Positions 1,499 to 20,851 of a stretch of 21,081 bases of DNA are shown piece by piece. Below the pieces are notes generated by a model. That model did no database searches. It saw only the letters and a list, made by a program, of their open reading frames with translations, and was not told the origin of the DNA. The position numbers and the translations under genes were made by a program. Every line of letters begins with the position of its first letter. Within the stretch, counting starts at the first letter, position 1. This DNA comes from a virus. Location of the stretch: the IMG/VR virus record IMGVR_UViG_3300006057_000006, positions 1 to 21,081 of that record; one strand, given 5' to 3'.

Positions 1499-2197
1499 AT
1501 GAATATTTTAGCAGATTTGCGTTACGTACAGGCAGACACGGACATAGCTTATGTCGATAGTCGGGTCTACTGTGCAGAAATTATTGAGGTAGATCATCAC
1601 GACTGGATGAACAACGTCCTCAAAAAGTATTTAGCCATCATAGAGCAACATTTTGGAATAGTGCGTTTTAAAAACGCACTATCTGGAAAACGCGGGATGC
1701 CGGAAGTTTACGCATTGTTGACGGAAGATCAATCCAGTTTTTCTTTAACACTTTCGCGCAACACTGCAAAAACGATGCAGCGGAAAGCAGAGTTAATTGC
1801 AGAGTTTGCAGCAGCTAAAGCCTACCGTCGCACCCAACTCGAAGCGCAACTAGCAGCGCCCGCCTACACCGCCCCAACGTTCGACTACCCGGTTAGCCAA
1901 CTTCGAGCGATCGCCAACTATTGCACTTTCAGCTACACCAAAGCAGCCATCCGTCGCGACTACGTTGAGGGCCTGCACTACGTGATGGTTGGTTCCGAGA
2001 TGATGCTCAGCGAGATTTGCTTTGGACTGGCAGTGAATGCTAGCCGATCGCGCAAGGGTGTCGATCTGGAAAATTGCCCAGATATCCAAATTTCGATCCG
2101 AGATGCGATCGCGCACCACAACGCGAAAGCCGCAAACAAACAGAACGCGCGGTTAACCAGGCAATGCCCTGGACAATTGAGTTTGGCACTTGGTTAA
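1499..2197 (+). CDS. Rha-family-like phage regulatory protein (antirepressor-like)
   Basis: The protein has 232 residues. Roughly residues 30-105 fit the phage Rha domain: a DHHDWMNNVLKKYL helix at the place of the usual H-(K/D)-N/W-V-L motif, a GMPEVYALLTEDQ strand pair, then SLTLSRNTAKTMQRKAELI, the family's closing helix that normally reads like TGKKA..FK..YI.AF. A linker rich in A, P and T leads to a second region (about 135-205) that I do not recognise. Rha proteins are regulators and toxic or antirepressor-like factors of temperate phages and act as DNA-binding or decoy proteins; the role here is inferred. The gene has its own promoter and leader and interrupts the minus-strand gpJ-gpI pair, so it behaves like a moron. 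A small gene follows after a hairpin. Confidence 0.6.
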   Translation: MNILADLRYVQADTDIAYVDSRVYCAEIIEVDHHDWMNNVLKKYLAIIEQHFGIVRFKNALSGKRGMPEVYALLTEDQSSFSLTLSRNTAKTMQRKAELIAEFAAAKAYRRTQLEAQLAAPAYTAPTFDYPVSQLRAIANYCTFSYTKAAIRRDYVEGLHYVMVGSEMMLSEICFGLAVNASRSRKGVDLENCPDIQISIRDAIAHHNAKAANKQNARLTRQCPGQLSLALG

Positions 2198-4550: not shown

Positions 4551-4613
4551 GCGATCGCATGGTAGTTCACACCAGTGCGATCGCTAACCAGCAAACCTAC
4601 CTTTTCTAGGCTC
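4551..4613 (+). promoter_or_regulatory. Leader with paired HIP1 octamers and a CCTA/TAGG element
   Basis: Two GCGATCGC octamers (4551-4558 and 4577-4584) can pair with each other across an 18-base loop. AACCTA (4594-4599) and TAGG (4607-4610) then form a small inverted repeat that contains the only AGG near the ATG at 4614. The second part resembles the leaders of the regulators that start at 1499 and 17658. Confidence 0.4.
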
Positions 4614-5300
4614 ATGGCTAAAAATATTGTAGCAAAAGATTTCGTGTTCACTTCCGATCGTACCCATGCAAAACTATCTAATCGTGGGACGGCACGACTA
4701 CTCAAAGTAACGGAAAACTCAATCCGTAAAATATTGAAGAGTGCGCACCTGTTTACTGATTTAGAGCTTCAAGCCATTGAAATAGAAGGGTTTGAGGGTG
4801 CGCACCTGGTTAAACTTGTCAAGCATTTTGCAGTGTCCGCTCAAACCAAATCAGAGACCAAACTTCACTGTTGGGATCTGTTTGAGAAAATGGCGACGAT
4901 GGGCGCTCAACTTTTTATCGACAGCCTTGCCGGAGTCAGCCCCACACAGAAACAGTTGCCGTGTCGCATCCTAGACCAACCAACACCGTGGGAACAGTTG
5001 TATGAGGTTGAATTCTGCGATCGCGTTTTCAAGTGGTTTGGCGCTCAATTCTACTGGGAGTTTGCCTATTGCTTTCTCAACCCACTGGAAATCTGTCGCC
5101 TGAATGAACTAAACCCGCCCAACAAAGGCGATCGCAAATACCGCATCCATCAGTATTTAGAACCCGACACCCGCAAGCGCCTAGAACCGCACGTATTGCA
5201 ACTGATAGCCATCTGTAACGCATCTGAGGACAAGCAGCAGTTCCTCACTGGCTATCAACGCCATTTCAACAAAAATAGCCAGTTGAAACTCAATTTCTAA
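4614..5300 (+). CDS. P63C-like regulatory protein, copy 1
   Basis: The product has 228 residues from the ATG at 4614 (a GTG at 4575 would add 13 residues but falls within the leader). Residues about 20-42 (LSNRGTARLLKVTENSIRKI) look like a helix-turn-helix. The C-terminal half matches the P63C domain pattern: PWEQLYEVEFCDRVFKWFG, ICRLNELNP, KGDRKYRIHQYLEPDTRKRL, HVLQLIAICNAS, then FLTGYQRHFNK. P63C domains occur in phage and plasmid proteins, often with ANT or other antirepressor-type N-termini. Two paralogues lie at 11974-12750 and 16855-17658; this one is the most diverged. It has its own promoter and a strong terminator, sitting as an independent unit between the scaffold-like and capsid genes. 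Role as transcriptional regulator or antirepressor is inferred. Confidence 0.6.
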   Translation: MAKNIVAKDFVFTSDRTHAKLSNRGTARLLKVTENSIRKILKSAHLFTDLELQAIEIEGFEGAHLVKLVKHFAVSAQTKSETKLHCWDLFEKMATMGAQLFIDSLAGVSPTQKQLPCRILDQPTPWEQLYEVEFCDRVFKWFGAQFYWEFAYCFLNPLEICRLNELNPPNKGDRKYRIHQYLEPDTRKRLEPHVLQLIAICNASEDKQQFLTGYQRHFNKNSQLKLNF

Positions 5301-7272: not shown

Positions 7273-7680
7273 TCACCAAATTACGTTTTTTCGCACCCCT
7301 AAAGTGCAAGCTGGTAAATTAGATGCGTTGGGAGTTAGTGCCTGCACTAAGCCTACAAGCCGCAAGTATTCGTCACAAAAAGGGTTGTTTTTAGACCCGC
7401 CTGAATTGCTCAGGTACTTGACTCGATAACCAGCCTCGCGCACCTCGAATTCAGCCAAACCAGCAGAACCCAAAAACTCAGGATTGATCTTAGACAATTG
7501 GCAGGCGAGTAAATTCTCAATTGCCCTATCCTTAAATCCCTGCCAGCCAGCCCCTAACAATTCCCATTCGTAGCGATCGACTTCTGCCACGGCATCAGGC
7601 AAAAGCAAATCAAATTGAGGCTGAGTTAAATCAGCAAAGTTGATAAACTTAGTCTTGAACCCTAAAAAAGTAACTGCCAT
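7273..7680 (-). CDS. DUF4054-like head-tail connector, antisense within the operon
   Basis: 135 residues on the minus strand. The layout follows the small all-helical neck proteins of the DUF4054/gp6-like group: an N-terminal FADLTQPQFDLLLPDAVAEVDR helix pair, GAGWQGFKDRAIENLLACQLSKI (the usual W/D...A..LLAAHLLA helix), an exposed strand with EVREAGYRVKYLSNSGG, and FCDEYLRLVGLV at the end. These form the ring joining portal to tail. The gene belongs here in order (capsid, connector, stopper) but is inverted with almost base-perfect edges: its stop abuts the upstream stop and its start is one base from the next ATG (CATAATG). GAGGTAGG about 6 bases before the minus ATG is a fair ribosome site. 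No clear minus-strand promoter is visible. Confidence 0.6.
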   Translation of the reverse strand: MAVTFLGFKTKFINFADLTQPQFDLLLPDAVAEVDRYEWELLGAGWQGFKDRAIENLLACQLSKINPEFLGSAGLAEFEVREAGYRVKYLSNSGGSKNNPFCDEYLRLVGLVQALTPNASNLPACTLGVRKNVIW

Positions 7681-11137: not shown

Positions 11138-11854
11138 ATGAGCAAACCCGCCAAACAAGATTTACCCGCATTGTTTGCCTTACCTGAGCCTACAGCGCCA
11201 ATTACGCCAGAGATTGACAATCTAGAAGAAGAGTTAATTGGTGAAGCCGTACTTAAGGATTTTGTACCTGGTATTATCTATTTTGATTATCAGGATATTC
11301 TCAATCAAAAAGTAGCCAAAGCAGAGGGGGAAGAAGGCAAGCGCAAAGCCATTTACAACGCTCAAGTTTGGCTGATGTGCCAAATGTATGAAGTAGTTGA
11401 GCCTGATGGAAAGGTGCGACCTTTGGGGCTGCAAGATATCTCGTTTATGGAGGGTGAAGACCTTGCCTTTCGGATAGCAGATATTATGTCGCTGACTCTA
11501 ACTGTTAACTTTCTGGATGAGAAAAACAGTTTAGAAAGCAGTTTGTTATTTGAAATTACTGAGAAAGCGCAGCGGTTTAGAGTGCATAGATTGTCGGTAG
11601 AGAAAGGGGTAGAAATTCAGCAACAAAGTCAGAAAGACCCGACTGGGGTCAAATTGACTAAGTGGCTAATTACCGAGCGAATTACGCTTAACGACGAAAA
11701 GATAAAAGAGGAAGATTTTAAGGATAAATTAGACTTTCAAACTACTGTGTTGCTAGCGAGTAAAATCAATTTTTTGTTATCGCAATTCCAGCAAAAAGGG
11801 ACATCATTCTCTTTACGAAGTACGCGGGTTGGGCGTACTCCGACATCAAAATGA
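11138..11854 (+). CDS. Tail assembly chaperone (zero-frame product)
   Basis: 238 residues, in the position of P2 gpE / lambda gpG between the tube and the tape measure. The N-terminus is P/E-rich and flexible; residues about 35-200 are mostly charged helices (KAEGEEGKRKAIYNAQVWLMCQM, SLLFEITEKAQRFRVHRLSVEKGV, KIKEEDFKDKLDFQTT). The protein coats the tape measure during tail assembly and is not kept in the virion. A -1 slip at 11770-11776 yields an extended form (see next entry). The zero-frame end after the slip site (SQFQQKGTSFSLRSTRVGRTPTSK) is unlike the family and looks like a simple terminal tail. Confidence 0.65.
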   Translation: MSKPAKQDLPALFALPEPTAPITPEIDNLEEELIGEAVLKDFVPGIIYFDYQDILNQKVAKAEGEEGKRKAIYNAQVWLMCQMYEVVEPDGKVRPLGLQDISFMEGEDLAFRIADIMSLTLTVNFLDEKNSLESSLLFEITEKAQRFRVHRLSVEKGVEIQQQSQKDPTGVKLTKWLITERITLNDEKIKEEDFKDKLDFQTTVLLASKINFLLSQFQQKGTSFSLRSTRVGRTPTSK

Positions 11855-11931
11855 TGGATTGCTTGGAGTTTCAGTCGTGGGTGAGCGAGGTGGTGAAATT
11901 GATGCAGGAAGAAGCGGACGCTAGGCAATAA
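11138..11931 (+). CDS. Tail assembly chaperone, -1 frameshift product (264 residues)
   Basis: The zero frame reads AAT TTT TTG at 11768-11776, a canonical heptamer T TTT TTG (11770-11776), the same as in P2 gpE. In the -1 frame the previous stop (TAA) lies at 11761-11763, just upstream of the slip site, and the frame then stays open until TAA at 11929-11931, well past the zero-frame stop (11852-11854). The extension reads VIAIPAKRDIILFTKYAG, WAYSDIKMMD, CLEFQSWVSEVV and KLMQEE: an aromatic-helical 'AGW...S.I..M...EF..W' pattern as in T-extensions. A separate start at 11851 (ATGATG, ATGA overlap) would give only 26 residues of it. The longer form recruits the tape measure in related phages. 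Confidence 0.7.
11770..11776 (+). promoter_or_regulatory. Slippery heptamer T TTT TTG (programmed -1 frameshift)
   Basis: In the correct phase (X XXY YYZ) in the chaperone gene. A second, weaker candidate, CAA AAA GGG (11792-11800), lies 22 bases downstream, still before the zero-frame stop. Confidence 0.7.
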
Positions 11932-11933
11932 AA

Positions 11934-11954
11934 AACCCGCTGGTTAGGCGGGTT
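11934..11954. terminator. Bidirectional terminator between the chaperone and the P63C-like gene
   Basis: AACCCGC (11934-11940), TGGTTAG, GCGGGTT (11948-11954). On the minus strand the stem is followed by an extended T-run (GCGGGTTTTTTATTG), an excellent terminator for the P63C-like gene; on the plus strand only GTTGTT follows, weaker for the sheath-tube-chaperone operon. Confidence 0.72.
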
Positions 11955-11973
11955 GTTGTTAGCAGCAAATGAA

Positions 11974-12750
11974 CTAATTTAGTTCTAGCTGCAATTGAAT
12001 TGCTACACCAAATCGGTTTTGCATTAACCGCCAAAAGTCAACCTGAGTCGTTGACATTTTTAGCAGCGTTAAAACCTCCGAAATATGAGCTTTCAACACC
12101 CGTTCATCAACCTCAGCGTCAAAGTGCTGGTAGTGCAGATTTTCGCGGTGTGCAGTGCCTGCAACGTAAGGATTGACCTCGTTCAGTCGCTCGGTCACAC
12201 TGACGCCCAAAGACCCGTATACCGAACGCTTGATGAAGTTAGCCATCGGCATCCCTTGCCAGTGGTAGCCTGTTACGCGAGTTGCTTCTTTTTGCCAGTC
12301 TGGGCTGAAATGTTGGGGTCGTGTTTTGTCGGGAACCTCGCTGATGCGACTGGCTAAATAGCCTTGTCGCTGGGCTTGTTCAAACACAACGCCAAAACTG
12401 TCAGAGAAGATTTGGACTAGAGACAAGCCGATCAAAGCTCGGCTAATTGAGATTGCTTGGCTGTTGCCTAAGACCGTCAACTCAAACAACAATTTTTCAA
12501 GATCGATCAAGAATACGCAATTGATAAGCTGACGCTTACCTTCTATTCGCGCCTTGGATGCTTTAAAATCGTTACCCAGTAAGCGTCTTAAGTCTCTTGA
12601 TGCAGTATTGTTGGATGCACTAAAACTTATTAGTTGATTCAACTGAGGCACTGCTACGCCGTAGCGTCCATCTTCAAACAACAGTCCCTCAAACTCGATC
12701 GCCCCAAAGCGCATGATCGCAACTTTTGCAGTTAAAATGTCCGTAGCCAT
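11974..12750 (-). CDS. P63C-like regulatory protein, copy 2
   Basis: 258 residues. AGAGGA (12766-12761) 10 bases before the ATG is a good ribosome site. The N-terminal part (about 15-105) has an antirepressor-like layout: FEGLLFEDGRYGVAVPQLNQLI, SRDLRRLLGNDFKASK, and LINCVFLIDLEKLLFELTVLGN. The C-terminal ~120 residues (DKTRPQHFSPDWQ, RVTGYHWQGMPMANFIKRSVYG, RLNEVNPYVAG, RENLHYQHF, HISEVLTLLKMS, FWRLMQNRFGVAIQ) match the P63C pattern and are more than half identical to copy 3 at 16855-17658. The gene lies between tail chaperone and tape measure, opposite to them, with a bidirectional terminator at its end and a divergent region at its start. DNA-binding or antirepressor function is inferred. 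Confidence 0.65.
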   Translation of the reverse strand: MATDILTAKVAIMRFGAIEFEGLLFEDGRYGVAVPQLNQLISFSASNNTASRDLRRLLGNDFKASKARIEGKRQLINCVFLIDLEKLLFELTVLGNSQAISISRALIGLSLVQIFSDSFGVVFEQAQRQGYLASRISEVPDKTRPQHFSPDWQKEATRVTGYHWQGMPMANFIKRSVYGSLGVSVTERLNEVNPYVAGTAHRENLHYQHFDAEVDERVLKAHISEVLTLLKMSTTQVDFWRLMQNRFGVAIQLQLELN

Positions 12751-12859
12751 GATTCAGCTTTCCTCTGAGTTGTGGTTAGCCACCTTGTTCAAGGGGGGCG
12801 CGGGCGGTTAAGTGGGCTGTTAGTCGCAGCCCTGTCCCGTAAATTATTGTACACCCAAA
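12751..12859. promoter_or_regulatory. Divergent region between P63C-like copy 2 and the tape measure
   Basis: 109 bases. For the minus gene, TACAAT (12851-12846) is a good -10 box with a poor -35 (CTGAGT-like) inside the tape measure start. For the tape measure I see only weak candidates (TTGTTC at 12785-12790, 17 bases, TTAAGT at 12808-12813). GGGCTG (12814-12819) and CAGCCC (12827-12832) form a hairpin or dyad between them. Confidence 0.4.
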
Positions 12860-15800
12860 ATGGCCGATACTCAGGTAACAATCCTAATTACCGCGATCGA
12901 TGAAGCGTCCCAAGCATTCAAAAGCGTGCTTGACAATAGCGAATCGATGGCGAGCAAATTGTCAAAAACTGCCAACACCCTAGGCGAGTTAGGGGAAATA
13001 GCGACGGATTTTACCGAGCCGCTAGCCAAGGGATTAAAAGCCTCAAAATCTGCTGCGATCGACTTTGAATCGGGCATGGCAGAAGTGCGGAAGACCACCG
13101 GGTTAAGTGCCGCACAAACTGCCGAATTAGGCAATGAAATCAAGAAGCTGTCGAGGACAATTCCACTCACTACTGAGGAATTGACAAACATCGGTGTAGC
13201 AGCAGGACAGTCAGGAATAGCCATGAAGGATATTCCCAACTATGTAAAAGATATTTCTAAAGCTTCTGTTGCTCTTGCTGTCGATACAGACAAAGCAGGT
13301 TTGGCATTTGGTCGGCTGGCTAATATCTACGGAATGTCCACCAATGAAATACCCAAATTAGCAGCAGCAATCAATGTACTTGGAGACAGTTCAGTCGCAT
13401 CAGAAAAGGAAATTTTAAACGTAATTATGCGGACGGCCGCACTCAGCAAGCAAGCCAATTTGACCGCTAAAGATAGCGCTGCTTTGGGTGCTTCGTTTGT
13501 GAGTTTGGGCATGGCTCCCAGTGTCGCAGCAACCGCAATTAACGCACTTTTGAGTAGAATGACCACTGCCGAAATTCAATCAGCGAAATTCCAGCAAGGA
13601 CTTGCTATGATTGGGATGACGGGCAAAGAGTTGCAAAATATGACCTCTAAAGACGGCGCTCAGGCTATTTTCGCTCTAGGGGCTGCTGTTGACAAATTAG
13701 ACCCGCAAGAAAGAGCCAAAGCAATCGGCTTAATGTTTGGCGCGGAACACTCCGATAACGTGGGGATATTCTTGGATCGGATGGACGTATTTAAGCAGTC
13801 TCTCGGAAGCGTTGCCAATGACCAATCTAACGTAAATAGATACAATGAAGTATTTGCGACGCAACTCGACACAACAGCGTCAAAAATGCAAATCCTTAAT
13901 AATAGTTTTCAGGAATTAGCCATTGAAATAGGCACGGCATTGTTGCCTGCAATCAAAGCTTTTGCAGCATTTTTAACGCCAATTATCAACAAAGTAACTG
14001 AGTTTGCAGCCAAGCACCCCAACATCGTTCGACTGGGTTCTGCACTTGCTGGTTTGGCTATTTCTTTAGGGCCTCTGTTGTTTGGACTGTCGGCACTGGT
14101 AAAAGCTTGGAGTTTATTCAGCGCTGGCATCCCAATTGTTGCAGCACTAAGCAATAAATTCTTAGGTGTGGGCAATCCCATATCTAAGATGCTCAATTGG
14201 CTGGCAGGAACCAACCAAAGATTGCTGGGAATTGGCAAGGCTTCTGATGCAATTACCCCGCCGGATCTGATGGGCAAAATGGGTAAGTTACCCAAGATCG
14301 AGGAATGTTTGCCAGTTTGTATTTGCCCTAAGATTTGCGATGATTTTGAGGCAAAATTAAAGGCATTAGCAGCAAAGATTGAGTATTGTATTCCAATTTG
14401 TATTTGCCCTGAAATCTGTACGGAAGGCGGGAAATTGCCTGATATCAGCAAAAAACCGACTGCCGATACCAGTACGGGAGAACTGGCTAAAGCATTACCA
14501 AAACCAGAACCCGCACCAATAGCAGCAGCAACAGAGGTAAAAGCAGAACCGGAGAAAGTAGCAGAAAAAACAGCAGAGAAACAGGGGCTATCTTTACCAC
14601 AAATAGCCATGTTAGTTGCTGCATTGGGTGCAACTGTTCTGGCGGTACAAAAGCTCACTGATAGCAACGCTGGATTAGGCGAGAAAGTAGTCAGCGCTGC
14701 AACTGCAATCGGTGCGGGAACGGCTGCGAAAGAAATGTTAAAGACCAAAACACCGCAAGAAGAGGCGACAGAACTAGCAGATATCCAACAGCAAGCAGCG
14801 CAGCAGCTAGGAGCAACGCAGTTAGAAATAGCGAACAAATTATCAACAACTCAACTGGCTAACGCGCAAGAATTAGCCAAACAAACGCAGGCAAATCAGC
14901 TAGCAGAAATAGCCACAGCGGATAAGATTGCTGCGGGTAAATTGCTCGCACAACAAGCCTCAAATCAATTAGCAACCCAACAACTGCAAACCCAACTAGC
15001 AGCGCAAAAAGCGGCTGCTGCAATTGAAACTGAGAAAGCGCGATTGATTGCCCAGCAGCAAGTCGCCGCCACTGCAACCCAGTCGATGATGCAGGCCGCC
15101 ACCAAGTCTCACACCGCAGTAACTGATGTTGCAGGTGCTCAGCAAGTAGGAATGCAGCAGAATATTGCAGCCCAGCAAGTAGCCGCGACTCAGCTAAAAT
15201 CCGACGCCGATCGCAGGCAGGCGCAGGAACAAGCGGCCCAAAAAGCGGCGATGGCTGCTGAGGAAAAGAGGCAGGAAGCGGCAAAAATTGCTGCTGAGAG
15301 AAAAGCGGAAGACGATCGAAATTTTGTACCGGTTGAAGATTCCGAAGGGCCGACACGATCGGAAATGCGATCGCAACCCGCTCAAAAATCTGGTGGCGGT
15401 ATTGGCGGCTTTCTGAAAAATGCAGCTTTGCTTGGGGCTGGTGCTGTTGGATTGGGTGGTGTTGCTTATGCTGTTTCTAAAGTTGCAGGGGGTTTGGGCG
15501 GTGTTGTGGGCGGGTTGGTGAATGCAACTAAAGGTGTAGCTGGTGCTGTCAGCGGCGTAACAGGGGCAATTTCTAAAGGGAATGCTATAGCCAGAGGTGC
15601 GGGTGAGGTTGCGGGCGGGGCGATCGGTACAGGTGTTAGAGGAATCGGGGCCGCCAGTTCCGTAGCCAGAGGCGCGGGTGAGGTTGCAGGCAGTTCAATC
15701 GGCGGGGTAATCAAAAGCTACGGCGCGGTCATGGATGCAGCCAAAAATTCAGGCGCTGCCGTGGGACAGGCGATGGGTAGCGCTATAAAAGGTACTCAAT

Positions 15801-16795
15801 CACTGAGTCAGGCCGCCAGTTCAGCAGGTAGCGGTATCGCCGGGGCATTTGGCAAGGCAGGGGCATCGATGGCTGGCAGTGCGGCAAAAGTTGGGGAAGC
15901 TGCTACGGGTGCGGTAGCGAATACTGCCTCAGCTTGGAGCCAAGTGCAAAAAGCAGCATCCGTAACAGGGACTGCAATGAAAGGTGCTAGCGGGGCGATC
16001 GGTAGTGTGCTCGCACCTGCAAAGACCGGGACGGCTGGTTTGCTTTCGGGATTGGGCAACTCGGTATCGGGAATAGCCAGCGGGGCAAAAGGGGCAATTT
16101 CCAGCGCGGTTGATGTTGCGAGCAAGTTTGCAGCATCGCCTGCAAGTAAACTGATTTTACCTGTGGCTACCAGTGCCGCCGGGGCTGCGGGTGCTGCACA
16201 AATAGCTGGTAGCACAGAGCCGCCCGCAACTCCCATGCCCAAAAATGAGATTGCCAAATTCACCAGGGCAAGTACGGCACCAGAAATTACACCTGCATCG
16301 GAATTAGCCAGTCAGTCGGCTGCGGTAGCTCAAAATAATATTGTTCCTCTGGTTAGATCGAGCAGAGAAAGCGGTAAAGCGATTGCTGGGGAATTAGCCA
16401 AAGGGATAGAGGAAAGCAAGCCGCAGGCAGAGTTAGCAGCCGCTGGATTGGCTCAATCAGTAAGTAGTTACCTGCCAAGATCGCCCGCAGAGAAAGGGCC
16501 GCTTTCAGATTTAGACCAAACTGGTTTTGGACTGACTCAGGAATTTATCAAAGGCATTGATGGCAGTGCGATTCAAAATAAGTTTGAAGAGGTGATGAAT
16601 CCGCCGTCAAAATTTGCTGGCATGGATATGGGTGGCAGTGGTGGCAATAGTTCTAGCAATGCAGTGTATTCGCCTACTTACAATTTATCAGGCACACCAC
16701 CTGAGAATTTTATCGCTGAGCTAGAGAAACACGACCGCAAGTTTGTTGAATGGTTGCAGCAGACTCAGGAGCGGTTCAATCGGGGGAGGTATTAG
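12860..16795 (+). CDS. Tail tape measure protein
   Basis: 1311 residues, the longest gene. Residues about 70-370 match the TP901-type tape measure core (ESGMAEVRKTTGLS, LSRTIPLTTEELTNIGVAAGQSG, ASVALAVDTDKAGLAFGRLA, IYGMSTNEIPKLAAAINVLGD, NVIMRTAALSKQANLT, FVSLGMAPSVAATAINALLSRMT). Hydrophobic segments follow near 385-430. Residues 483-493 and 510-520 each read C-x-P-x-C-I-C-P-x-I-C, an unusual duplicated cysteine motif. About 600-840 is an A/Q-rich coiled coil, and 850-1130 a G/A-rich hydrophobic repeat region. The C-terminus ends in charged FIAELEKHDRKFVEWLQQTQERF. It sets tail length; at about 0.15 nm per residue, roughly 195 nm. It stands alone between two P63C-like cassettes. Confidence 0.85.
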   Translation: MADTQVTILITAIDEASQAFKSVLDNSESMASKLSKTANTLGELGEIATDFTEPLAKGLKASKSAAIDFESGMAEVRKTTGLSAAQTAELGNEIKKLSRTIPLTTEELTNIGVAAGQSGIAMKDIPNYVKDISKASVALAVDTDKAGLAFGRLANIYGMSTNEIPKLAAAINVLGDSSVASEKEILNVIMRTAALSKQANLTAKDSAALGASFVSLGMAPSVAATAINALLSRMTTAEIQSAKFQQGLAMIGMTGKELQNMTSKDGAQAIFALGAAVDKLDPQERAKAIGLMFGAEHSDNVGIFLDRMDVFKQSLGSVANDQSNVNRYNEVFATQLDTTASKMQILNNSFQELAIEIGTALLPAIKAFAAFLTPIINKVTEFAAKHPNIVRLGSALAGLAISLGPLLFGLSALVKAWSLFSAGIPIVAALSNKFLGVGNPISKMLNWLAGTNQRLLGIGKASDAITPPDLMGKMGKLPKIEECLPVCICPKICDDFEAKLKALAAKIEYCIPICICPEICTEGGKLPDISKKPTADTSTGELAKALPKPEPAPIAAATEVKAEPEKVAEKTAEKQGLSLPQIAMLVAALGATVLAVQKLTDSNAGLGEKVVSAATAIGAGTAAKEMLKTKTPQEEATELADIQQQAAQQLGATQLEIANKLSTTQLANAQELAKQTQANQLAEIATADKIAAGKLLAQQASNQLATQQLQTQLAAQKAAAAIETEKARLIAQQQVAATATQSMMQAATKSHTAVTDVAGAQQVGMQQNIAAQQVAATQLKSDADRRQAQEQAAQKAAMAAEEKRQEAAKIAAERKAEDDRNFVPVEDSEGPTRSEMRSQPAQKSGGGIGGFLKNAALLGAGAVGLGGVAYAVSKVAGGLGGVVGGLVNATKGVAGAVSGVTGAISKGNAIARGAGEVAGGAIGTGVRGIGAASSVARGAGEVAGSSIGGVIKSYGAVMDAAKNSGAAVGQAMGSAIKGTQSLSQAASSAGSGIAGAFGKAGASMAGSAAKVGEAATGAVANTASAWSQVQKAASVTGTAMKGASGAIGSVLAPAKTGTAGLLSGLGNSVSGIASGAKGAISSAVDVASKFAASPASKLILPVATSAAGAAGAAQIAGSTEPPATPMPKNEIAKFTRASTAPEITPASELASQSAAVAQNNIVPLVRSSRESGKAIAGELAKGIEESKPQAELAAAGLAQSVSSYLPRSPAEKGPLSDLDQTGFGLTQEFIKGIDGSAIQNKFEEVMNPPSKFAGMDMGGSGGNSSSNAVYSPTYNLSGTPPENFIAELEKHDRKFVEWLQQTQERFNRGRY
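15588..15691 (+). repeat. Direct repeat in the G/A-rich part of the tape measure
   Basis: 29-base units at 15588-15616 and 15663-15691 differ at two positions, period 75 bases (25 codons), both encoding ARGAGEVAG. This suggests recent unit duplication within the tape measure, a way for tail length to change. Confidence 0.65.
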
Positions 16796-16805
16796 GCAGC
16801 AAAAA

Positions 16806-16827
16806 ACCGCCCGGAGGCGGTGTTTTT
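16806..16827. terminator. Bidirectional terminator after the tape measure
   Basis: ACCGCC (16806-16811), CGGA, GGCGGT (16816-16821), then GTTTTT on the plus strand; on the minus strand the stem is followed by TTTTTT. Serves the tape measure and the convergent P63C-like gene. Confidence 0.78.
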
Positions 16828-16858
16828 AACAGTGGTGACAATTTGTCACTACTGTTAA
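16826..16858. repeat. 33-base near-perfect palindrome
   Basis: TTAACAGTGGTGACAA (16826-16841), T, TTGTCACTACTGTTAA (16843-16858); the one mismatch is a G-U pair in plus-strand RNA. It contains the stop codon of the convergent P63C-like gene and abuts the terminator stem. It may be a second hairpin in termination or a protein-binding dyad. Confidence 0.65.
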
Positions 16859-17658
16859 TTTAAATCGAGTTCAATTTGAATCGCTTCACCAAAGCGATTT
16901 TGCATCAACTGCCAAAACTGAAATTCAGAGAAAGACACTTTCAAAAGCGTTCCAATTTCGTCAATATGACGCTGCAACAAAGCTTCATCGATATCCGGTA
17001 CAAAGTGTTCGTAGTGGTAGTTTTCGCGGTGGCGTCCGTCAACAATTGGGTTGACTTGGTTGAGGCGATCGGTGCAAGGTTTGCCAAAGAAGTTATACAC
17101 GGAGCGGCGGATAAAATTAGCCATCGGGTAGCCTTGCCAGTTGTAGCCAGTCACCCGACAAGCATGAGTTTGCCAGTCTTTATTGAAGTGGATAGGACGG
17201 GTTTTATCGGCAGTTTCGCTGATGATGCGATCGATTGTGCTGCGAGCAATTTGGGATGATTGGTATTGCTCAGGTAGCCAGCCGGTCACAGCTTGGATGT
17301 AGCTGGTTAGACCGATAACCCCGGTAAGCTGATCTATTTCTTGCGCTTGCTCAGAACCAGAATAAGCGTAGTGCTTGATAACTGCTGAGCAAAAACTAGC
17401 GTTATAGACGATCGCACCTGCGCCACGCTTTCCAGTCTTGACAATTTCAGTAACCAATTTTAAATCTTTACCTACAAAGGATTGCAGCCATTTTGAAGGT
17501 GATTTGGTAATCAATTGTTTTTCAAGCTTCAGTATTGCTGGATTTGTTACTCCACAAGCCCGTGCTAGCCCGCGTTGGCTCATGCCTGATTCACCCGTGG
17601 CTACTAGCGTGTAGTATTCAACGCCGTCGCGGTTAACTCGCAAAATGTTATTATTCAT
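16855..17658 (-). CDS. P63C-like regulatory protein, copy 3
   Basis: 267 residues. Residues 26-46 (MSQRGLARACGVTNPAILKL) are a clear helix-turn-helix; about 48-140 is a middle region with IVYNASFCSAVIKHYAY and LTSYIQAVTGWLPEQYQ. The C-terminal ~120 residues (DKTRPIHFNKDWQ, RVTGYNWQGYPMANFIRRSVYN, RLNQVNPIVDG, RENYHYEHF, HIDEIGTLLKVS, FWQLMQNRFGEAIQ) match the P63C pattern and are close to copy 2, while the N-terminus is unrelated to copy 2. The gene is convergent with the tape measure and divergent from the tail operon, the same arrangement as copy 2 on the other side of the tape measure. Domain shuffling around a conserved C-terminal domain is typical of phage antirepressor families; the DNA-binding role is inferred from the HTH. 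Confidence 0.68.
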   Translation of the reverse strand: MNNNILRVNRDGVEYYTLVATGESGMSQRGLARACGVTNPAILKLEKQLITKSPSKWLQSFVGKDLKLVTEIVKTGKRGAGAIVYNASFCSAVIKHYAYSGSEQAQEIDQLTGVIGLTSYIQAVTGWLPEQYQSSQIARSTIDRIISETADKTRPIHFNKDWQTHACRVTGYNWQGYPMANFIRRSVYNFFGKPCTDRLNQVNPIVDGRHRENYHYEHFVPDIDEALLQRHIDEIGTLLKVSFSEFQFWQLMQNRFGEAIQIELDLN

Positions 17659-17728
17659 GTGTTGACCTGCTGATTAGGTTGACCGCGCCGCTGGATCGTA
17701 AGTCCGAGCGGCACTTTCTAATATTCTA
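17659..17728 (-). promoter_or_regulatory. Leader of P63C-like copy 3
   Basis: Read on the minus strand: a -10-like TAGAAT (17728-17723; no convincing -35), a hairpin formed by 17714-17704 with 17694-17685 (GCCGCT/AGCGGC core), then GGTCAACCTA (17684-17675), AGG (17668-17666), TCAAC and the ATG. The order and several words match the leader of the Rha-like gene (1441-1498). Confidence 0.45.
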
Positions 17729-17736
17729 GCACCCCC

Positions 17737-17765
17737 CTGACAAACCCGGCTACCCCTGCTAGTAT
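17737..17765 (+). promoter_or_regulatory. Promoter pointing into the CRISPR-like repeats and tail operon
   Basis: CTGACA (17737-17742), exactly 17 bases, TAGTAT (17760-17765). Transcription would begin near 17773, about 8 bases before the first CRISPR-like repeat, leaving a 180-base leader before the gpU-like ATG. It is divergent from P63C-like copy 3. Confidence 0.45.
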
Positions 17766-17780
17766 CAATTCAAGCGCTGG

Positions 17781-17871
17781 TTAAACCCCTATCAGGGATT
17801 GAAACGAACTCTAAAGCTGTGCTTTGAATTCTATTTATTCTTTAAAATAAATTCCTATTAGGGATTGAAAC
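17781..17871 (+). CRISPR. Two CRISPR-repeat-like units in the tail operon leader
   Basis: CCTATCAGGGATTGAAAC ends at 17805 and CCTATTAGGGATTGAAAC ends at 17871; over 25 bases (17781-17805, 17847-17871) 21 positions agree, period 66 bases. The ATTGAAAC end and the CCT...AGG stem are typical of cyanobacterial CRISPR repeats and of the 8-nt crRNA handle. Similarity fades 5' of these 25 bases, shorter than a usual 36-37-base repeat, and there are only two units. The segment between them contains a hairpin, AAAGC-TGT-GCTTT (17813-17825). No cas gene is in the window. Could be a mini-array, a repeat mimic, or a decayed array. Confidence 0.5.
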
Positions 17872-17889
17872 AAATAAAAACTACAACTT

Positions 17890-17915
17890 AAAACCCCTTC
17901 ATTGACAGGGGCTTT
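17890..17915 (+). terminator. Weak terminator-like hairpin after the CRISPR-like units
   Basis: CCCCT (17894-17898), 8-base loop, AGGGG (17907-17911), extended by three A-T pairs beyond a mismatch; CTTTATCC follows. It could end a short RNA of about 140 nt starting near 17773, or attenuate the tail operon. On the minus strand the stem is followed by TTTTAAG. Confidence 0.4.
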
Positions 17916-17952
17916 ATCCTATGCGAGCATAAAACCACTCTCACATTTGACT

Positions 17953-18414
17953 ATGTTCGGAAGCTTTGGCTCAATCCCTATCAAGAAAGCCACGATGCTC
18001 AATAGATCGCGGTTTTTCCCTGTGGCTGAGGCTGATGTTGCTTTGGGCCTGCCTTCGCTACAAGTGGTAAGTCGAAAATTGGAAGATATCGAATTAGCAC
18101 TGAGTTTTTTTGGCGCAAGCACTGCCGATGATGTTGTGGCGTGGCAGAGAGTAGCCAGTAGCAGGGAGCCTGCTGTGTTCGTAATTGGGGGCAAACCACA
18201 GGGCAGATGGATTGTCACGGCGCTGACAGAAGAGATTAATCATGCAATCGGCGATCGCATAGTTGCCCAAAGGTTGCGTGTCACCTTCAAGGAAGAGGGC
18301 GCATTTTTGTGGGCGGGGAATTACAGCCCTTACGAGCCTCCACCTGTTGCGCGTCGGCAGGCTGAGCAAGGTCTGGGTGGTTTACTAGATGGATTAAAGG
18401 GATGGTTGGGATGA
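17953..18414 (+). CDS. gpU-like tail protein
   Basis: I chose the ATG at 17953 (153 residues); an upstream TTG lies within the leader hairpin. Sequence order follows P2 gpU: a short N-terminal strand (MFGSFGSIPI), RSRFFPVAEADVALGLPSLQVVSRKLEDIELALSF (in P2: W-x-x-x-x-R-V-G-R-x-P-x-x-Q-F-L...I-x-L-x-G), a helix-turn near DDVVAWQRVA, then PAVFVIGGKPQGRWIVTALTEEINH (P2: P-x-I-E-G-x-G-x-x-Y-G-x-Y-V-V-E-x-I), and RLRVTFKEEGAF, the closing strand. gpU completes the tail end at the neck. It is coupled to the next gene by ATGA. Confidence 0.72.
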   Translation: MFGSFGSIPIKKATMLNRSRFFPVAEADVALGLPSLQVVSRKLEDIELALSFFGASTADDVVAWQRVASSREPAVFVIGGKPQGRWIVTALTEEINHAIGDRIVAQRLRVTFKEEGAFLWAGNYSPYEPPPVARRQAEQGLGGLLDGLKGWLG

Positions 18415-19751
18415 TAACTTTTACCACTAGAGCGAACGATCGGTGGGATTTGATAGCCGGCGACTTGTGGCAGTTGCCAGAATTGGGGTGGGCAATTGCT
18501 GAGGCTAACCCCGATATTGCCGACAGCCTTGTCCTGAGAGCCGGGATAAGTCTTATTCTGCCAGAATTGCGATCGCTAAGGCGGCCGCTAACTGCGGCTA
18601 ATCCAGCGCGCGAGGATGATGGCGAGTTTCAGCAACTACCGCCACAACCACCGTCGCCGATCGTGCCTCCTAGTGGAGGGGGCGGATCGGTAGTGTTCCC
18701 AATTACCATTGCTCAGGGTGGTACGGGCGGGGTCACGGCTCAGGAAGCTTTGCAAAATCTGGGAGCGGTAGCCTTAGCCAGCGTGGGAGCGGTTGGGGGG
18801 ATTGCGGGGCTTGATGGCAGTGGCAAGGTGTCAGCGGCTAATTTGCCCCCGTTTCAATCGCCACTTACCTTCCCGATTGCTGTTAATCAAGGTGGTACGG
18901 GAGCCAACACGGCAGCAGCAGCAAGAGCGAATTTGGGGGCGATCGCGCTGAGTGATGTTCCGGCGTCAATTCCACCAAGCGCGATCGGGGTTTCTGTAGC
19001 TCCTTTGGTTAGCGGCTTGGTTCCTGTTAGCAACTTGCCGCTTTATCCAACACTTTCAAGTTTAGGGGGGATTCCACTTACTCAAAAAGGAGCTGTAAAT
19101 GGTGTTGCACCGCTTGATTTTAATAGTCTTGTTCCTTCTCTCAATCTTCCCCCATACCCCACACTTGCTAGTTTGGGTGCTTTGGCTGCTAGCAGTCGGG
19201 GTGCTGCTAATGGAGTAGCTCCTTTGAGTGCTGATGCGCTTGTCCCCGTAGCTAATCTTCCCCAATACCCCACACTAGCCAGCTTGGGCGCGGCTTCTTT
19301 GAGCGCCAATCAAACTTTTAGCGGTCTAAATAAATTTAGTGGTGTCTTTTCAGTCACAGGTTCGACCACAAATTTAATAGATTTAAATGTGGGAGCAATA
19401 GCCAATGCCTATTATTGGTTCAATCCTACAAATACAGCAAATGTAGGTCAAAGATTGTCCGATATCGTCAAAATTTCTAATGGAAATTTAGTCCTACGCC
19501 ATCTTACCGACAACTATTCTGCTGTTACTTTTCAGTGGCAATTTACCGCTTCGGGCAATCTTATTTGTCCCGGCATGGTACAAGCTGCAAGCTTTGCGTC
19601 AAATCCTACTGGCGCATCCTTTATCCCTGGTGGCTTCTATTACAATACTACTTTGGGTTGCTTAGTGTATTCGGGCGCGGGCCCGGCAGGATCGCCATCT
19701 GCGGGGACTATTAGCTGGCGCAGAATGGACACTAATGCAATTGTTACATAA
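18411..19751 (+). CDS. gpX-like LysM tail protein fused to a tail-fibre region
   Basis: Start at 18411 (ATGA overlap with gpU; an in-frame ATG at 18402 would add three residues). Residues 2-53 (FTTRANDRWDLIAGDLWQLPELGWAIAEANP...LRAGISLILPEL) are a gpX-type LysM-like domain; P2 gpX is only about 67 residues. A P/Q/G linker leads to two fibre motifs QGGTG..T...A..NLGA (about 101-120 and 158-177), then three repeats of VAPL...LVP..NLP.YPTL.SLG (about 195-294), and a beta-rich end to residue 446 with FYYNTTLGCLVYSGAG. QGGTG repeats are standard in phage fibre stalks. So a 446-residue protein seems to unite a tail-tip LysM module with a fibre. Gene order U-X-D as in P2 supports the gpX part. Confidence 0.7.
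   Translation: MITFTTRANDRWDLIAGDLWQLPELGWAIAEANPDIADSLVLRAGISLILPELRSLRRPLTAANPAREDDGEFQQLPPQPPSPIVPPSGGGGSVVFPITIAQGGTGGVTAQEALQNLGAVALASVGAVGGIAGLDGSGKVSAANLPPFQSPLTFPIAVNQGGTGANTAAAARANLGAIALSDVPASIPPSAIGVSVAPLVSGLVPVSNLPLYPTLSSLGGIPLTQKGAVNGVAPLDFNSLVPSLNLPPYPTLASLGALAASSRGAANGVAPLSADALVPVANLPQYPTLASLGAASLSANQTFSGLNKFSGVFSVTGSTTNLIDLNVGAIANAYYWFNPTNTANVGQRLSDIVKISNGNLVLRHLTDNYSAVTFQWQFTASGNLICPGMVQAASFASNPTGASFIPGGFYYNTTLGCLVYSGAGPAGSPSAGTISWRRMDTNAIVT
18993..19291 (+). repeat. Three repeats in the gpX-fibre gene
   Basis: Units near 18993-19065, 19101-19180 and 19212-19291 encode VAPL...LVP..NLP.YPTL.SLG. Units 2 and 3 keep CCCCACACT and further stretches at DNA level. Expansion or loss of units would change fibre length. 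Confidence 0.6.
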
Positions 19752-19753
19752 AT

Positions 19754-20851
19754 ATGTTAAAGCCATCCCTTCGTATATTTCTAGAGCAAGCTGATATCAG
19801 CGCAGACATACTGCCTGATATCATTGATTGCGAGTACAACAACGAGGGAGATAACGCATCGACTTTGAGGCTAATTGTGCGCTCATCACCACGGTTATTT
19901 AACAGCGATTGGATGCCCCGCCCGTTTCAATACATTAAGTGTCAGTTCTATTATAAAGGTAATTCAAATGTTTTGAATGCAGGTAACTTTCAAGTTGAGT
20001 CAGTCCGTGAAAAAGTAGGAAATAGCTACGATGTAATTGAAATTACAGCTATCTCTGTTCCCATAAAAGGGCGGATTTATGAACGCAAAAATTTAAGTTT
20101 TAACGGCGTACTGTTAGAAACAATCCTTAGAGACAAAGCGATTGGATTGCAGTTAAATCCTAAAATACAAATACCAGAGTTGTTTGTAAATGTCAAACAA
20201 CAAGAACAATCAGACCTTGAATTCTTACGAATGATTGCGGGTAGTTGGGGCTTCAATTTCACAATTGACAACGGCACTTTAGTAATGGCAGGTGATGCGT
20301 ATTTCCGCACCATTCCACCAATACTTACCATGTCTCGCAGCGAGTACAGATCGCTTGACATCGAGCATTCTGGCTACAACACCTACGCTGATTGTGAAGT
20401 GAGTTACACTTGGCTAGGGGAGGACAAAAGCCTCACGGTGAAAGATTGGGCGGTATTTACTGACAATTTAGTATCGCTACGATCAAGCCGTAGATTAAGG
20501 CACGAGATGAAGTTTCCGGTAGTGTCGCCGTACCACGCAGCCTATGCGGGAGTAGAGCAATTAATTAAGAAAAATAACGGACAAATCCAAGGCACAATGG
20601 AGGCAATCGGACGCCCTGAATTAGTCGCATTTAATAATATTCAGCTATTAGGCAATCGATTTAACGGCAAGTATCAAATCTTGAAGGCTACCCATCGATT
20701 TAATAGTGATGGCTGGAAATGTAGCTGCAATCTGAAGTGGATACCTGTGAGGGCGGGTGATGTGCAATTTACGTGGTACGATCTATTGGAGATAGCCAGA
20801 GGCTCAATTGGAGGCTTTGGCATTGATATTCCTGGTATCCCCGGTATTTGA
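19754..20851 (+). CDS. Phage late control D-like tail hub protein (gpD)
   Basis: 365 residues. N-terminal hub barrel: PSLRIFLEQADISADILPDIIDCEYNNEGD followed by a strand with STLRLIVRSSP, then PRPFQYIKCQFYY, GNFQVESVREKVGNSYDVIEITAISV and the family signature of a cleft-linked middle region with ETILRDKAIGLQL. SDLEFLRMIAGSWGFNFTIDNGTLVMAGD is the best-conserved stretch (P2-like: D-x-x-F-L-x-x-x-A-x-x-x-G...). The C-terminal part is YHAAYAGVEQLIKKNNGQIQGTMEAIGRP, LLGNRFNGKYQILKATHRFN. The trimer forms the baseplate hub below the tube. It ends one base before the exoribonuclease gene. Confidence 0.8.
   Translation: MLKPSLRIFLEQADISADILPDIIDCEYNNEGDNASTLRLIVRSSPRLFNSDWMPRPFQYIKCQFYYKGNSNVLNAGNFQVESVREKVGNSYDVIEITAISVPIKGRIYERKNLSFNGVLLETILRDKAIGLQLNPKIQIPELFVNVKQQEQSDLEFLRMIAGSWGFNFTIDNGTLVMAGDAYFRTIPPILTMSRSEYRSLDIEHSGYNTYADCEVSYTWLGEDKSLTVKDWAVFTDNLVSLRSSRRLRHEMKFPVVSPYHAAYAGVEQLIKKNNGQIQGTMEAIGRPELVAFNNIQLLGNRFNGKYQILKATHRFNSDGWKCSCNLKWIPVRAGDVQFTWYDLLEIARGSIGGFGIDIPGIPGI

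Follow-up and report, generated by a model that had tools for sequence, protein, structure and literature searches.

The 21,081-base IMG/VR virus record analysed here in full, referred to below as the window, carries two genes of the P63C type that run against the surrounding tail genes, one on each side of the tape measure gene, and the question is what these reversed cassettes do there. The tail cluster follows the order sheath, tube, chaperone-like gene, tape measure, gpU, gpX/fibre and gpD; with the cassettes included, the layout reads tube and chaperone genes, hairpin, reversed P63C-type gene, tape measure, hairpin, reversed P63C-type gene and gpU-gpX-gpD (Table 1). A preliminary description had proposed that both cassettes end the preceding structural transcript and restart the next, so that regulator-gated tape measure and gpU units would order tail assembly. 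The reading that we favour, with a probability of about 0.55, is that the P63C cassettes are morons and that the downstream one adds a CRISPR (clustered regularly interspaced short palindromic repeats)-mimicking RNA, which would act like an RNA anti-CRISPR and possibly serve as the gpU leader. What deserves most attention is the paired CRISPR-repeat mimic in the gap between the downstream P63C-type gene and gpU.

HIP1 sites (GCGATCGC) occur 13 times in the window against 0.38 expected, and relatives of the P63C-type proteins are located on cyanobacterial plasmids, one of them, for example, without an annotated tail gene nearby. Together, these observations point to a cyanobacterial host. The window was compared with two close relatives, the provirus L005 and L006 (the three are called the three phages below). 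The structural genes of L006 are mostly 80-100% identical to those of the window, the exceptions being the tape measure (56%) and gpX (47%). Searches with the tail tube retrieved no close relatives from GTDB genomes, and INPHARED held no match for the sheath/tube DNA or the P63C protein. A sheath search of 388 genomes of the order gave five matches at 26-34% identity; six loci were fetched around sheath matches, and the tape measure was visible in four of them (L199, L202, L205 and L207), which served as distant relatives.

The convergent genes flanking the tape measure were confirmed, and their products are homologous (43% identity over 238 amino acids, E 4e-56, chiefly in the C-terminal P63C half). 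A structural gene does precede the upstream hairpin, though it ends at 11854 and is followed by an overlapping 26-codon frame. L006 lacks the upstream cassette, and only three bases separate the stop of the overlapping chaperone frame from the tape measure start. At the same site, L005 carries a different P63C-type gene that shares the hairpin and the 73-base leader flanking its counterpart in the window; its product is closest to a third P63C-type protein, encoded in the head gene region of the window (45%), and 30% identical to the downstream protein. All three phages have the downstream cassette. Its gene is intact in L006 and broken by an internal deletion in L005, where a frame of 152 amino acids (12172-12630) and a 3' remnant survive, residues about 147-214 are gone and the adjoining repeat units are intact. 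None of the four distant relatives has a P63C-type match in the tail region: their sheath-to-tape-measure gap is 1.15-1.42 kb, similar to the 1.3 kb of L006, and at most about 0.5 kb lies between the tape measure and the next gene with a match. Absence, exchange and breakage among relatives argue that neither cassette is an obligatory gate of the tail genes.

Phage morons are independently transcribed inserted genes (PMC6469090). By these comparisons, both P63C cassettes appear to behave as morons, that is, as self-contained antisense insertions that are variably present or swapped among relatives. Both sites are uninterrupted in the four distant relatives, as is the upstream site in L006; signals of their own are suggested by the conserved terminators on the P63C strand and by a conserved extended -10 element on the minus strand of the downstream cassette. 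Like morons in general, the cassettes are inserted between genes contiguous in relatives, on the opposite strand and with a probable terminator of their own. Unlike typical morons, the inserts of the window are of the P63C type, occur in up to three copies and have their coding part exchanged between fixed flanks.

The hairpins had been described as bidirectional terminators. Both stems exist, and the same hairpins recur in relatives (both in L005, the downstream one only in L006), but their T-tracts, measured as the number of T's within the 8 bases following the stem, are conserved on the minus strand only. At the upstream hairpin, the counts in the window and L005 are 6 and 6 on the minus strand and 4 and 0 on the plus strand; at the downstream hairpin, they are 6, 7 and 6 (minus) and 5, 4 and 3 (plus) in the window, L005 and L006. 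The conserved role of both hairpins is thus, as read from the alignments, the termination of P63C transcripts, although in the window, and there alone, the downstream hairpin might serve the plus strand as well. Shuffled sequence gave 10.8 +/- 3.4 terminator-like sites, compared with 21 in the region.

Nor do the two cassettes share one design. In the upstream divergent region, between the P63C-type gene and the tape measure, no plus-strand promoter scores better than 7/12; a conserved plus-strand promoter-like site is found in the downstream region only. Moreover, the 73-base leader of the upstream P63C transcript is identical in L005 while the N-terminal domains encoded behind it differ, which argues against autoregulation at that leader; the one IMG/VR contig that matched the core of this leader was that of L005. 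At the level of sequence, the comparison among relatives contradicts gating of the tape measure.

The downstream gap, in turn, offers a candidate start for gpU. The plus-strand site has the form TTGACA-17-TGCTA[G/A]TAT, with CTGACA as the -35 of the window and TGC preceding the -10, and scores 9, 10 and 10 of 12 in the three phages. Identical columns among them amount to 5/6 in the -35, 8/9 in the TGN-10 and 6/15 in the spacer. On the opposite strand lies the conserved extended -10 of the P63C-type gene, and the two conserved elements together make a separate start for gpU-gpX-gpD plausible. This agrees with the separate gpU-gpX-gpD transcript proposed earlier, whereas the gating part of that proposal is at odds with the broken P63C-type gene of L005. 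A further hairpin ahead of gpU is conserved in 24 of 29 columns, and only 4, 3 and 3 T's of 8 follow it in the three phages; such a weak T-tract suggests that transcription continues into gpU. The gpU start region is identical in 27 of 32 columns, and the start codon is most likely ATG 17954 rather than TTG 17902.

Transcription from a gpU-facing start would first yield an RNA carrying two CRISPR-repeat halves, a feature overlooked by the preliminary description. These units, R1 and R2, lie 66 bases apart, and both end in a CRISPR stem followed by the 8-base ATTGAAAC handle. A 19-base repeat core, allowing at most three mismatches, occurs twice in the window (one mismatch each), compared with 0.01 occurrences expected by chance. 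The Rfam family RF01318 (CRISPR-DR5) scores 38.0 bits at R2 in L005, 30.8 in L006 and 30.0 in the window, below its gathering score of 40. Matches to Rfam MIR476, snoRNA, RNAI and Trp_leader also fell below their gathering scores and were taken as chance. R1 and R2 are each identical in 21 of 23 columns among the three phages, and the interval between them in 28 of 43. Both units lack the 5' third of the host repeat, and R2 has single-base departures in the window and in L006.

The same halves were recovered from arrays. The last 24 bases of R1 in the window are the end of a 37-base array repeat in three loci of the viral collection (L142, L144 and L153), and the last 24 bases of R2 in L005 are the end of the array repeat that was met most often, in 13 loci. 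An exact 23-mer of the L005 unit occurs in at least 119 stretches of GTDB genomes, many of them regular arrays, the genera among the matches listed including Nostoc, Komarekiella, Roseofilum, Okeania and Kamptonema. A 191-base element matches 184 of 376 cyanobacterial genomes of the order, and nearly all of the matches listed fall at R1 or R2, or span both in register; the repeat period of host arrays is about 70-75 bases, compared with 66 in the window. Such repeats have been tabulated for cyanobacteria, and one form was tied to subtype I-D in Microcystis (PMC4916379, PMC4428289). Cas typing near the arrays took 105 of 229 open reading frames (ORFs) and, counting the 25 commonest families, gave five proteins with Cas1 matches and four with Cas6 matches, with no clear subtype.

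In the IMG/VR viral collection, the repeat half was found in 29 stretches. By reading, five of these hold arrays of at least three units, four hold two units at array spacing, nine come from one other lineage (a 45-base pair plus a further copy), two belong to relatives of the present lineage and nine are single copies, one of which (L136) resembles the edge of a full repeat. Five loci of the other lineage (L138 11168-14481, L147, L148, L160 and L161) carry the 3' half two to three times, and the 45-nt pair directly follows what appears by eye to be a tRNA 3' end. In L157 (1-7135), a repeat half lies near two small ORFs directly before a tape-measure-like ORF of 1992 amino acids, the second small ORF resembling, by eye, a HigA-type antitoxin. 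L157 suggests that such additions may preferentially enter just ahead of the tape measure.

These observations are combined in the following mechanism. Each cassette would carry a terminator and, probably, a promoter of its own. The forward promoter would make an RNA whose first part mimics CRISPR RNA precursor (pre-crRNA), beginning with two 3' halves of a cyanobacterial CRISPR repeat, each a stem-loop plus the 8-base handle. Host Cas6 would bind this RNA, and perhaps cut it, as it does pre-crRNA, and the useless crRNA-like product would tie up Cas proteins without a useful guide. What was observed is the conservation of the promoter-like site and of the repeat halves and the identity of the latter to host repeats; expression of the RNA, its binding or processing by Cas6 and inhibition of CRISPR we infer. 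The same transcript may run on into gpU-gpX-gpD. The P63C protein, which has a putative helix-turn-helix (HTH) domain and whose gene would be read in the opposite direction from a promoter almost touching this one, may control the RNA.

Several results weigh against this reading. Sigma-70-like sites number 7 in the region against 11.2 in shuffles, so that single promoter matches are not above chance and the evidence for the gpU-facing site is its conservation. R1 of the window alone folds unconvincingly (z 0.46), and R1 and R2 can instead pair together. Csc3, the I-D marker, was over the cut-off in 6 of 14 matching genomes, and in one of the five genomes noted for exact R1 matches; of 97 ORFs near R1-type arrays, 10 were scanned as proteins, all near one such array, and no Cas match was found among them. 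Furthermore, none of 1509 distinct spacers from the fetched loci convincingly targets these phages. Lastly, as each unit covers about 24 of 37 repeat bases and two units lie within 100 bases, the element falls outside the published definition of a solitary repeat unit (SRU).

That definition (Camara-Wilpert et al. 2023, PMC10651486) asks, for a full match in SRUFinder, that 90% or more of a known repeat be covered at no less than 90% identity, where 23-24 of 37 bases match here, and for no second repeat within 100 bp, where the second unit stands at 66 bases. Further marks of an RNA anti-CRISPR or SRU are an intergenic position in a mobile element, and the units lie between 17658 and 17954 of a virus record; likeness to repeats of likely hosts, and the exact 23-mer is found in Nostoc, Kamptonema, Okeania and other arrays; and expression as a small RNA from an own promoter, for which the window offers a candidate in the promoter-like site conserved in the three phages. 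We, thus, do not apply the strict SRU label, and the element most likely works like one. As in the RNA anti-CRISPRs (Racr) of that study, a host-type repeat copy led by a promoter, here a putative one, lies in an intergenic region of a phage, and the repeat stem and handle are kept; RacrIF1 was reported to engage Cas6f and Cas7f. In contrast to Racr, the window has two units, each the 3' two thirds of a repeat, and they would sit in the leader of a tail gene beside a P63C/HTH gene. The published SRU filter would discard paired, partial units of this kind. In the literature searched, the coverage of which is partial, no paired half-repeat element in a cyanophage was found.

If the proposed mechanism is true, RNA anti-CRISPRs would include a paired half-repeat form missed by the filters of the published screen, they might sit within a late structural operon, and cyanobacterial phages would hold uncounted candidates. 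The model of timed tail assembly would then give way to a testable one of morons and counter-defence.

Among the alternatives, a virus-borne mini-CRISPR array, in which host Cas proteins would be directed by the one conserved spacer-like interval to rival phages or to a gene of the host, is improbable. Its two repeats stand in array-like register, and cyanophage N-1 has a transcribed array of the DR5 family (Chenard et al. 2016, PMC4916379), likewise in a phage of filamentous cyanobacteria. That array comprises five 37-bp repeats, four spacers and a leader, whereas the window holds two repeat halves and one conserved interval. Mini-CRISPR arrays implicated in interviral conflict (PMC6858448, PMC11656645) also consist of one or two units carried by a virus; unlike them, the window has incomplete repeats and an interval for which no target was found. 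Within IMG/VR, the initial 19 bases of the interval have exact matches in this lineage only, so no related virus is matched by it as by a spacer, and the interval, common to the three phages, drifts instead of being exchanged.

Our favoured reading, an RNA that mimics pre-crRNA, can also be extended to the neighbouring gene: the paired truncated repeat RNA would be the gpU operon leader, both decoying Cas6 and trimmed by it, with the P63C/HTH protein as its dedicated regulator and the protein family linked to CRISPR in hosts and phages. The N-terminal domain of the downstream P63C-type protein does occur in proteins beside host arrays, on pSYSA of Synechocystis and in genomes G169 and G076. 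Among 35 genome or plasmid loci scanned for arrays (L214, L199-L212 and L216-L235), arrays lie near five homologues, in three loci: L214 (pSYSA 60000-76000), L216 and L223. The proteins there, of 346-383 amino acids, join the domain to another C-terminus; that of the pSYSA homologue is HTH-like, and its gene is placed between cas2 and the CRISPR array. Among 13 viral loci checked, two of them from this lineage, repeat-like units lie near the domain in three, namely those two and L252, where the distance is about 4 kb, and no general link between domain and CRISPR was seen. Given that most homologues are not near arrays and that viruses show no general link, regulation of the mimic RNA by the P63C protein is a suggestion drawn from the divergent layout. 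The extended version is unlikely.

Less probable still is the gating of ordered tail assembly: it accords with the confirmed layout, the conserved promoter-like site before gpU and the five plus-strand T's of the window's downstream hairpin, and runs counter to the unconserved plus-strand T-tracts, the lack of a good plus-strand promoter ahead of the tape measure, the absence of the upstream cassette from L006 and of both from the four distant relatives, and the broken downstream gene of L005. It is similarly doubtful that the halves are DNA operators, near-palindromic CCCTATTAGGG copies 66 bp apart that bind the P63C/HTH protein and loop; their site between a regulator-like gene and gpU, conserved spacing and near-palindromic core would fit, but the predicted start precedes both copies, so that neither covers the promoter, and operators leave the handle and the exact 24-base identity with host repeats unexplained. 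A decaying, functionless remnant of a captured host array would agree with the incomplete repeats, the departures in R2 and the commonness of arrays in likely hosts, and is scarcely to be expected when the cores are conserved better than the interval, along with the promoter elements, in three phages.

Pfam gives the P63C label weak support for the two proteins themselves. The upstream protein scores 20.2 bits with Pfam P63C (PF10546), below the gathering score of 26.1; for the downstream protein, no P63C score is reported and Pfam gives just a hint of HTH_3 (18.1 bits, cut-off 23), so that neither cassette protein reaches the PF10546 threshold. The threshold is passed by the relatives L251 (28.1 bits; 55% identical to the downstream protein) and L208 (30.6 bits), so that the kinship of the window proteins runs by a chain through them. 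A search of 388 genomes of the order detected homologues of the downstream protein in 24, most of these homologues matching the N-terminal half alone. Domain-shuffling phage regulators and antirepressors of the Rha, Bro and KilA-N types carry differing N-terminal domains on a common C-terminal domain, and P63C-type proteins likewise join different N-terminal domains to a common C-terminal one. The third, head-region relative has no match in the corresponding stretch of L006. A structure prediction for the downstream protein, made from five sequences, was discarded (predicted local distance difference test score, pLDDT, 40.6).

Table 1. Positions of the features discussed, in window coordinates
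Feature	Position	Strand	Basis
Third, more distant P63C-type relative, head gene region	4575..5300	+	PHROG, protein comparison
Tail assembly chaperone-like gene (gpE position), precedes upstream cassette	11138..11854	+	ORF list; role inferred from position
Overlapping 26-codon frame, possible frameshift extension of chaperone	11851..11931	+	ATGA overlap; three-phage alignment; role inferred
Probable terminator hairpin, upstream P63C gene	11934..11954	-	Hairpin search; T-tract conserved on minus strand, not plus
Upstream P63C-type gene, 258 amino acids	11974..12750	-	Pfam (below cut-off), homology to downstream protein
5' leader of upstream P63C transcript, 73 bases	12771..12843	-	Identical in L005 despite different coding region
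Tape measure protein, 1311 amino acids	12860..16795	+	Pfam PhageMin_Tail 3.1e-26; PHROG 28 E 3e-60
Probable terminator hairpin, downstream P63C gene	16806..16821	-	Minus-strand T-tract in 3/3 phages
Downstream P63C-type gene, 267 amino acids: N-terminal HTH-containing domain and P63C-type C-terminal half	16855..17658	-	Pfam, homology
Extended -10 (TGCTAGAAT) for downstream P63C gene	17723..17731	-	Identical in three phages (11/11 columns of stretch)
Conserved sigma-70-like promoter site facing gpU	17737..17765	+	Motif scan, three-phage conservation
R1, first CRISPR-repeat 3' half (stem and ATTGAAAC handle)	17782..17805	+	Shares 24 nt exactly with array repeats
R2, second CRISPR-repeat 3' half, Rfam CRISPR-DR5 family	17849..17871	+	RF01318 below gathering score
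Conserved hairpin; holds TTGACA (17902-17907) of second possible gpU promoter; weak T-tract	17894..17911	+	Motif scan, alignment
gpU-like tail gene	17954..18414	+	Pfam Phage_P2_GpU 26.5 bits, below cut-off 27.5
gpX-like N-terminus fused to tail-fibre-like repeats	18402..19751	+	Pfam, PHROG
gpD-like tail protein	19754..20851	+	PHROG 52 2.2e-30

The chaperone-like gene is 95% identical in L005 and 88% in L006, and scans of Pfam and PHROG gave no match for it. The 26-codon frame, present in the three phages, overlaps its stop by ATGA after AAAA and is possibly a programmed frameshift product or a coupled extension of the tail chaperone. Within the run of head and tail genes, an antisense ORF (7273-7680, minus strand, 135 amino acids) is 92-96% identical in both close relatives, and a Pfam scan gave no match for it. 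A Rha-like regulator gene (1499-2197, plus strand; Pfam pRha 22.5 bits, below the cut-off) adjoins the baseplate genes and is a further regulator-type gene amid structural genes.

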